This document shows positions 28,850-30,350 of a stretch of 30,887 nt of DNA, in pieces. This stretch comes from a virus: the IMG/VR virus record IMGVR_UViG_3300043466_000307, positions 1 to 30,887 of that record; one strand, written 5' to 3'. Numbering within the stretch: the stretch's first letter is position 1; each line of letters begins with the position of its first letter. The position numbers and the translations under genes are program-made. The notes below the pieces were generated by a model. It worked only from the letters and a program-made list of their open reading frames with translations, searched no databases and was not told the origin of the DNA.

Positions 28850-29475
28850 ATTAACTGATCCAAGTTTTTTCCGTCCTTAATCGCCTGTAAAATAAACAAT
28901 TTCCAAATCTTATTCTTGGTTTTGGCGCCAACTGTTGATTCTTCAACGTATCGCGTCGTTAAACGCAATTCTCGGCGCACGTCGCTTTCTAATTCTTCAA
29001 CGTTAAAGTCCCAAGGCTTTAAAATTCCTTTTTCTTGGAATCTGTTAAACCAATAAACGCCCCATTCAGCAATGTGTCGAACCGTTCCTGTTTCTTTGGC
29101 GTGCTGGTAATTATCGCGAAACGTTTGGCGTCCAATTTCCTTCCAATGTTCAATTTCCTCGTTGCTATATTCGCGCTCTTTGTTGTTTAGCGCTTGGACT
29201 TCTTGCACAATTTGGCTTTGGTGGTGCGCATAGTATTGATTTATCCAAACGCTCACCGTCTTTTCGTTAACGTGGTAAAAATCTCCGTATTGGCCACGCA
29301 TTCCAGCGTGTAAAATGTAGTCAACTCGCTGGTCAGTCATCCAGCCAAAACTACCAAACAACTTGCTAAGGCATCCAAGCAATTCGTTGGCCTCTTCTTT
29401 TTTGTATTCTTTAAATTGTTTAAGTCCGCAAACAAACTCCATTTTGCGTAGGTGCGTTAAAATTATCTCATTCAT
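28846..29475 (-). CDS. Hypothetical replication-region protein in lambda-P position
   Basis: A 209-residue, mostly helical protein (FVCGLKQFKEYKKEEANELL, then FGWMTDQRVDYILHAGMRGQ, YHVNEKTVSVWINQYYAHHQ). It follows the replication initiator gene with an eight-base overlap, as lambda P follows O, and the helical start resembles the domain of helicase loaders, but I find no ATP-binding site and no firm family. A role as a loader for the host DnaB helicase is inferred from position alone. The start is preceded by AAAAACACCTAAAAAATG. Confidence 0.6.
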   Translation of the reverse strand: MNEIILTHLRKMEFVCGLKQFKEYKKEEANELLGCLSKLFGSFGWMTDQRVDYILHAGMRGQYGDFYHVNEKTVSVWINQYYAHHQSQIVQEVQALNNKEREYSNEEIEHWKEIGRQTFRDNYQHAKETGTVRHIAEWGVYWFNRFQEKGILKPWDFNVEELESDVRRELRLTTRYVEESTVGAKTKNKIWKLFILQAIKDGKNLDQLI

Positions 29476-30220
29476 TTTTTAGGTGTTTTTCTCGTTGCAA
29501 ATCTTCATAAATTTCGTCAAAAACGTTTCGACTTTTTTCTTGTTTAATTTCAATTGGGTTGCCTCTTTTTATCCAATTAAAAAAATGCTCTTTTGCATCC
29601 TTTTCGCTTACCTTAAATTCGGCCTTTAAAATACATTCTTGCCGAAACTCATTTAAATGATTCCTAACCTGGTCAATTGTTGCCTTATGCTTCATTGCCA
29701 TACTTTCCAGCCAAATCTTATTATTCCATAAATCGCGGAAAATTTGATTGTGTGAGTCCTCATTTAATTTGTTTTCATTTCCTTTATTTTCTTTAATTTC
29801 TTTTACTTTACTTTCCTTTAATTGCATTGCATTCGCATTGCGTTCGCTATGCGTTCGCATTGCGTTCGCATCAATATCTCGATTCCAGCGTTTCTTGGCC
29901 GATTCTCTAGCCTTTTCAGATCGTTCCTCTTTTAATTCCATACGTTTTAAAAGGCTTTCCGACCAAAAATATTGCTCATCTACTTCGAATAAATCAAAGT
30001 CGTTAATCAGTCTTTTGATGCTATCTTCATGCGTTTGCAATGCGAATGCAATGCCTTTGTAATGCGTTCGCATACGAAAGTCGCTCTCGTTCCTAAGCAT
30101 CTCAATAATTGCCCAAAAAAGACCGTAACCCTCCCAACCCATTTCCATTCGTAATTGTAAAATCTTTGGGTCTTCTTTGGCGTTCGCGTCGTGCGAAAAG
30201 TAATAAGCCTCTTTTTTCAT
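29468..30220 (-). CDS. DUF4373-type replication initiator, carries origin-like repeats
   Basis: The N terminus MKKEAYYFSHDANAKEDPKI and LRMEMGWEGYGLFWAIIEML are typical of DUF4373 (Lin1244/Lin1753 N-terminal) proteins, which occur in phage replication modules. Residues about 1-105 form this winged-helix-type domain; residues 118-154 are a low-complexity charged linker coded by iteron-like repeats and an AT-rich tract; residues about 158-250 form a helical DnaD-like end (FRDLWNNKIWLESMAMKHKA). The ATG at 30220 is chosen because the longer in-frame start at 30274 would be translated from the terminator hairpin and adds 18 residues unlike the family. It should bind the origin and recruit host replication proteins. 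Confidence 0.8.
   Translation of the reverse strand: MKKEAYYFSHDANAKEDPKILQLRMEMGWEGYGLFWAIIEMLRNESDFRMRTHYKGIAFALQTHEDSIKRLINDFDLFEVDEQYFWSESLLKRMELKEERSEKARESAKKRWNRDIDANAMRTHSERNANAMQLKESKVKEIKENKGNENKLNEDSHNQIFRDLWNNKIWLESMAMKHKATIDQVRNHLNEFRQECILKAEFKVSEKDAKEHFFNWIKRGNPIEIKQEKSRNVFDEIYEDLQREKHLKNE
29761..29820. other. AT-rich strand-asymmetric tract, possible unwinding element
   Basis: This 60-bp stretch in the initiator gene has about 82 percent A+T, with ten C but a single G on the plus strand. It directly flanks the 11-bp repeats. In lambda ori, a similar purine/pyrimidine-biased AT-rich tract lies next to the iterons inside gene O and melts first. Confidence 0.55.
29826..29869 (+). 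repeat. Four tandem 11-bp iteron-like repeats (origin candidate)
   Basis: Units: ATTGCATTCGC, ATTGCGTTCGC, TATGCGTTCGC, ATTGCGTTCGC, consensus ATTGCGTTCGC with no spacer. Eleven is not a multiple of three, so each unit is read in a different frame and the repeat cannot be explained by a protein repeat. About one helical turn per unit puts all on one face of the DNA. Further copies: CATGCGTTTGC (30028), the inverse of the first unit at 30042-30052, and AATGCGTTCGC at 30061-30071. Confidence 0.7.
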
Positions 30221-30316
30221 AGAAATAAAAAAGCCCCAATCGGGTCGGAGACGATGGGGCTGGTTGGTTTTCACCTATGAAACATTTAAGGCTCCGACCT
30301 CTTAAATGTGTCATTC
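30221..30316 (-). ncRNA. Structured leader RNA with kissing hairpins and terminator
   Basis: The predicted transcript from the promoter at 30323-30350 would start near 30316. It contains hairpin A (ACATTTAAG / CTTAAATGT, loop AGGTCGGAGC, 30309-30282), a small hairpin B (TTTCA-TAGG-TGAAA, about 30282-30269) and terminator hairpin T (30261-30232), whose loop holds CTCCGACC. The loops of A and T are perfectly complementary over eight bases (GGTCGGAG with CTCCGACC). The initiator ATG is at 30220. It may be an attenuator, a riboregulator, or a free small RNA of about 85-95 bases. No matching known class comes to mind. Confidence 0.65.
30227..30261 (-). terminator. Terminator/attenuator before the replication initiator
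   Basis: On the minus strand AGCCCCA-TCG pairs with CGA-(A/T bulge)-TGGGGCT across a nine-base loop and is followed by TTTTTT then ATTTCT and the ATG. The stem has ten pairs with one bulged base. It would end transcripts from both the early operon and the local promoter. Confidence 0.8.
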
Positions 30317-30322
30317 AATAAA

Positions 30323-30350
30323 CAAATATAACAATTTTTAATTTATCCAA
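30323..30350 (-). promoter_or_regulatory. Promoter of the replication unit
   Basis: On the minus strand TTG (30350-30348), a spacer of 17 bases, and TATATTTG (30330-30323) fit the Flavobacterium-type promoter. The -33 part lies in the last codons of the small HTH gene. The start would be near 30316, just before hairpin A. Confidence 0.65.

Follow-up and report, generated by a model that had tools for sequence, protein, structure and literature searches.

A leader with two mutually complementary hairpin loops lies directly before the replication initiator gene of the phage described here. The same layout recurs in about 120 distinct phage leaders, which apparently constitute a large, undescribed RNA family. 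Covariation among relatives shows that the loop of the first hairpin (A) kisses that of the terminator hairpin (T) over 7 bp or more. In the reading that we prefer, with a probability of about one half, the leader is a terminated RNA of about 90 nt that uses loop kissing to meter the expression of the replication gene; the kiss would act on the nascent RNA in cis and, probably, between RNA copies in trans.

The window, that is the whole 30,887-bp virus record that was analysed, carries the entire leader element on its minus strand. The element begins with a Bacteroidetes-type promoter (30323..30350), consisting of TTG at 30350-30348, a 17-nt spacer and TATATTTG at 30330-30323. The RNA is predicted to start a few bases past the promoter box, at the foot of hairpin A. 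This hairpin (30277..30314) forms the 5' end of the RNA; its stem has nine perfect base pairs, 30309-30301 with 30290-30282, and four further ones beneath one mismatch. Its 10-nt loop contains the kissing sequence GGTCGGAG (30292..30299) with the core GTCGGAG (30298-30292). The small hairpin B (GGT-GAAA-ACC, 30266..30275) and the terminator hairpin T (GCCCCATCG ... CGATTGGGGC, with one bulge, 30233..30260) follow. The loop of T presents the kissing sequence CTCCGACC (30243..30250), the exact 8-nt complement of that in loop A. A run of six T (30227..30232) marks the predicted 3' end of the RNA, and six bases separate it from the ATG (30220) of the initiator gene (29468..30220, minus strand), whose product matches Lin1244_N, DUF7833 and the replication initiation protein family phrog_2562. 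An earlier sequence-only reading of the window had named the promoter, hairpins A and B, the terminator, the complementary loops and the spacing to the ATG, and all of them are where it puts them. The initiator gene also contains iteron-like direct repeats of TGCGTTCGCAT with an 11-nt period (window 29817-29893 and 30019-30073), which are possibly the replication origin. The sequence GCGAACGCA, with at most one mismatch, occurs in 3-8 copies in most Lin1244-type relatives and in 0-1 copies in relatives of the DnaD-loader type.

The A/T fold is backed by covariation and not by the energy of the single sequence (z ~ -2.8); the minimum-energy fold of a longer stretch is a different and longer structure. 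An initiator-based scan yielded 72 loci. All close relatives with upstream sequence have the same layout, with compensatory changes in the stems of A and T and a T-run kept in every aligned relative. The sequence-only reading depended on relatives retaining the stems and the loop complementarity, and both are kept while the loop letters change. The versions of loop A in the window-type leaders are GGTCGGAG, GGTGAGAG, GGTAGGAG, GTGGTAG and GTGGAAG, each with its exact complement in loop T, and the 7-nt loop core is Watson-Crick paired at 7/7 positions in all 37 distinct window-type leaders (37/37). In L252 and L254-L256 the kissing helix has a natural G-U variant, GTGGGAG/CTTCCAC, where L253 has GTGGAAG/CTTCCAC. 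The longest exact complementarity between the A part and the T part is 7-9 nt and is centred on the loops, which points to a loop-loop contact and makes a classical antiterminator less probable. Between A and T the linker varies in sequence but little in length, 15-19 and 18-22 nt. Hairpin B has the counterpart AGGTT..AACCT in relatives and is absent from the other subfamilies; it is particular to the window's subfamily and no general part of the class. Sequestration of the start codon was considered and rejected, the pairing of UUUCAUAG with CUAUGAAA seen in the window being lost in relatives.

A strict scan for the promoter, A, T and the loop match found 69 distinct places on both strands of 5.17 Mb, made up of loci mostly fetched for their initiators, and 3 in shuffled copies, in agreement with the earlier claim that an exact complement between the two loops is unlikely to arise by chance. 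Lin1244 initiators follow 65 of these modules, other replication-region genes follow three and an HNH gene follows one.

More distant initiators share the architecture, with unrelated sequence. A hairpin, a T-run hairpin and loop complementarity of at least 6 nt were found in 100 of 221 distinct upstream regions, 97 of them with at least 7 nt; the corresponding numbers for 1,105 shuffled regions were 24 and 8. Among the upstream regions without a leader are those of Clostridia and Bacillota relatives. Most of L368-L445, which form a clade of Bacteroidetes-phage-like initiators, also have no leader; apparent coding sequence lies upstream of these genes, and the clade serves as a natural negative control. 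The best sampled of the other groups, a second subfamily, is represented by 35 distinct leaders (alignment A5), in which 99.1% of the cells of the whole 20-pair structure are paired. For the 7-bp kissing helix all 245 of 245 cells are Watson-Crick, a perfect percentage that comes partly from selection, because these leaders were admitted when the detector saw a loop match. Five of the seven kissing pairs show two-sided change and none purely one-sided change; the two-sided cells number 68, against a shuffled mean of 22.6. When the partner was slid by 1-3 columns, pairing fell to 14-45%. Both loops are exactly seven nucleotides long in this subfamily, and among all members with enough sequence to be read only L347 has no recognised code. 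The start taken for L347 may be the wrong one, since its record has a model match elsewhere. The pooled total is 123 distinct leaders with a loop match of at least 7 nt, a few singletons among which may be chance.

About 20 loop codes occur, mostly of the form xUNNNAx. Of nineteen 7-nt loop-A sequences from all subfamilies, 18 fit this form, and 15 central triplets occur; because the set was put together manually, a formal probability can be read only as "far from random". The form holds for loop T as well, since it is the complement of loop A. Positions U2 and A6 are fixed and the middle three are highly variable. U-turn loops are known in anticodons and in antisense RNAs. The U at position 2 of a 7-nt loop is alike here, which is a resemblance only. 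The calculated duplex energy, which leaves out loop geometry, averages -8.5 kcal/mol for cognate and -1.4 kcal/mol for non-cognate loops, and 2% of the non-cognate pairs come within 1.5 kcal of the cognate.

Of 113 distinct leaders, 108 have the promoter box TAnnTT[TC]G (background rate, 3.8% per 40 nt), usually with the stem of hairpin A 0-8 nt behind it. Together with the conserved T-run, this bears out the suggestion of a discrete leader RNA of about 90 nt ending at an intrinsic terminator. The RNA is predicted to be about 85-95 nt long, beginning with hairpin A and ending at T. No conserved antisense promoter was found across the 113 loci, which have five scattered -7 boxes on that strand, and control by an opposite-strand antisense RNA was rejected for want of a conserved promoter there. 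In the stems, G-U exceeds A-C on the leader strand by 35:3 and 52:20, 19 of these 20 coming from one column. It is therefore the transcript, and not the DNA, that has been selected. The same one-strand bias and the conservation of promoter and T-run make it hardly credible that the module is a DNA element, such as origin hairpins, even though it adjoins the initiator gene and that gene contains iteron-like repeats.

The leader stands directly before three non-homologous types of replication gene, namely Lin1244, a DnaD-like helicase loader and DUF6291, and in all three T ends a few bases before the start codon. In three syntenic relatives the code is the same as in the window but the gene behind it differs: it is that of a DnaD-like helicase loader in L124 (phrog_2514) and of a DUF6291/phrog_19415 protein in L153, and L129 has an HSDR_N_2-like nuclease ORF with a DnaD-like loader behind it. 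These three were found by a loop-only pattern search, whose matches were mostly chance. A scan with the L124 protein yielded 63 loci. The covariance model R1, which was built only on Lin1244-type leaders, matches 36 of these 63 as well as L124, L129 and L153, nearly always directly before the gene, and the matched DnaD-loader leaders carry the same five codes as the Lin1244-type leaders. More distant loaders (L485-L498) have a further version of the leader, for example GTTGCAG/CTGCAAC. Standing before non-homologous replication genes, the leader is therefore not tuned to one initiator. The nuclease ORF between leader and replication gene (L129:5988-6431, 147 aa) recurs in L481 (leader 2465-2563); being inserted behind the leader, it would therefore be the first gene that the leader governs. 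A second kissing-loop leader precedes a NUMOD4/HNH homing-type endonuclease gene in L297 (2848-2946; the L299 record is alike). The two codes within phage L297 differ, GTACGAG at the initiator and GTGAGAT at the HNH gene.

This gene context bears on three other explanations. Replication proteins are known to be under autogenous control, and the position of the leader would suit binding of the initiator protein to it, with the kissing fold as the binding site. However, the same code in a near-identical leader occurs before non-homologous proteins, and near-identical proteins have different leaders; autogenous binding is largely refuted by this and very improbable. A stable small RNA might instead have a separate task in trans on a host or phage mRNA, the A-T kiss only stabilising it and the leader position being incidental. 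It would begin with a hairpin and end with a terminator, as typical small RNAs do. We regard such a task as decidedly unlikely, because the leader stands directly before the gene in all three replication-gene types with T near the start codon, and because the loops change freely, which makes a fixed outside target unlikely. Finally, two mutually complementary loops per RNA would allow closed dimers or rings, formed by A1-T2 and T1-A2 contacts for a structural task, or the RNA might be an origin primer. Two such loops in one RNA are present in the phi29 pRNA, the packaging RNA of a protein-primed phage. The window phage, in contrast, has the TerL/portal/tape-measure gene set of a siphovirus, and the position of the terminator at the start codon speaks for control of the gene, so that multimers or a primer seem very improbable. 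A layout of RNA, terminator and gene is also found in type III toxin-antitoxin systems; this candidate was rejected, the genes here being replication proteins and the RNA having no repeats.

Mapping the five codes onto a tree of 51 window-type initiator genes takes 19 changes (minimum 4; 26.1 with shuffled labels); for the eight codes on a tree of 69 second-subfamily genes the number is 18 (minimum 7; shuffled 34.3). L043 and L047 are 98% identical in the gene, 97% in the promoter and 71% in the leader, the divergence being confined to the RNA in the alignment. The initiators of L296 and L300 are 100% identical over 390 nt, their leaders are 65% identical and their codes are different. The codes of the window and of its closest gene relative, L002 (96% over 700 columns), differ as well. 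Near-identical initiators thus have leaders of different code, and the RNA has therefore been exchanged as a cassette. The swapping of a variable loop code between relatives was overlooked by the sequence-only reading, as were the occurrence of the leader before non-homologous replication genes and a reading in trans, as self-recognition. Selection for code diversity is the natural reading of these comparisons, although the exchange could be neutral phage mosaicism with weak selection.

The kiss might also act within one RNA alone, tuning the timing or level of the terminator, with the codes reflecting drift and mosaic exchange. The two loops always occur in one RNA, and the narrow linker would, by a rough length estimate, be long enough to span the kissed rod. 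We consider this restriction to cis somewhat unlikely, since it leaves unexplained both the near-identical genes with leaders of different codes and the variable middle three loop positions beside the fixed U2 and A6. A real contact in cis is favoured by the narrow linker length, a role in trans by the code exchange. The earlier proposal of a switch for replication onset stands in so far as the leader is tied to phage replication genes; action in trans is as natural a reading of it as action in cis.

The carriers of the leader are phages, many of whose records are near 30 kb. A phage integrase was found in 0 of 42 phage records and ParA in 0 of 29. Bacterial genomes (299 + 395) were scanned with two leader models. 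R2 found only the Chitinophagaceae MAG already known, with matches on 33- and 19-kb contigs that may be phage contigs. R1, run on the 395 genomes of the class, gave weak matches to ordinary terminators without a loop match (ten judged by eye). The module is therefore a phage element, and from the promoter type and the MAG we infer that the hosts are of Bacteroidetes type. Prophage immunity as a function was rejected in view of the missing integrase and ParA and the near-empty scans of bacterial genomes. A search of INPHARED by initiator protein found no closely related cultured phage, the listed records being below 60% identity. The sequence-only reading knew of no described class with this layout, and none came to light: Rfam gave no family at the gathering score and chance-level matches only at a relaxed threshold, and such a leader RNA is not described in the literature searched, which lay outside subscription journals.

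In our preferred model of metering by loop kissing, the RNA started at its own promoter would end at T directly before the replication gene. T would stop most transcripts, and only read-through past T would yield replication-gene mRNA. The A-T contact would set how often RNA polymerase passes T. Early in infection, the nascent A loop would catch the emerging T loop and hinder or delay the terminator, so that the gene is read. The accumulating short RNAs would then bind new transcripts in trans at A, at T or at both, allowing T to fold and expression to stop. The outcome would be a copy-dependent negative feedback. The opposite sign is possible, and whether the A-T contact favours or hinders termination is a guess. 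RNA copies would recognise each other by the loop code, and only those of the same code would do so. The code would then double as a tag for incompatibility or superinfection, and this would account for the exchange of the leader as a cassette among close relatives. Against this model, loops kissing in cis may be unavailable in trans, and without integrase or ParA classic prophage or plasmid immunity has no obvious setting; a role in self-recognition would exist only under lytic co-infection or in a carrier state. More tentatively, the leader might be an RNA barcode, with xUNNNAx loops offering up to about 64 central codes, that is placed before whichever replication gene a phage has and senses copies of its own kind. 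Non-integrating phages would use it to regulate replication and to exclude or tolerate co-infecting relatives by code, and cassette exchange would diversify it.

RNA-controlled termination before a replication gene is already known; the RNA family that would realise it here appears to be new. By analogy, the leader would work most like the P4 CI RNA and the pIP501 and pT181 attenuators, with a ColE1-like loop specificity, and is built differently from all of them. In satellite phage P4, a leader-derived RNA terminates replication-gene transcription: the CI RNA is a small RNA complementary to other parts of its untranslated leader (the seqA and seqC targets), and premature termination keeps the replication genes off (PMC4825925). 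What the two share is a leader, lying ahead of replication genes, that yields an RNA complementary to a different part of that leader. The complementary segment here, however, is the terminator's own loop, with about 20 interchangeable codes, and the RNA of about 90 nt has its own promoter and terminator, with no evident processing and no lysogeny genes found. In plasmids pIP501 and pT181, whether transcription ends prematurely ahead of the initiator gene is settled by loop-loop pairing in the rep leader (PMC4981023, PMC3753616). An intrinsic terminator lies between promoter and initiator there as here, but the partner is an opposite-strand antisense RNA, whereas both loops of the phage leader are in one sense RNA. 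Loop changes in ColE1 RNAI/RNAII can make origins compatible (PMC9458437). The contact between the loops of complementary hairpins is alike, although RNAI and RNAII are a sense-antisense pair acting on a primer RNA and the phage leader has no conserved antisense promoter. The c4 RNA of phages P1 and P7, an antisense RNA with complementarity probably in the loops, sets heteroimmunity (PMC12197685). It differs in targeting an antirepressor mRNA, and the present leader scores with no Rfam family.

This structured RNA is widespread, and its tertiary loop-loop contact covaries unusually strongly. For such phages, the literature searched seems to contain no description of RNA control of replication. 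Were the trans reading true, the codes would amount to a natural set of orthogonal kissing-loop regulators, ready for use, and incompatibility between non-lysogenic phages would be directly testable by a seven-base exchange.

Two smaller features deserve mention. Among the terminator hairpins of L274-L353, part of the second subfamily has a recurrent internal loop between the outer and inner stems of T, with GATGAA or GCTGAA opposite GGATT or a similar sequence; this may be a protein- or metal-binding motif. The DUF6291-type gene of L153 (1018-1710) and the window initiator gene (29468-30220) differ in their N-terminal replication domain and have nearly identical C-terminal tails (NVFDEIYEDLQRQKHLKNE), which suggests domain swapping at the initiator locus.
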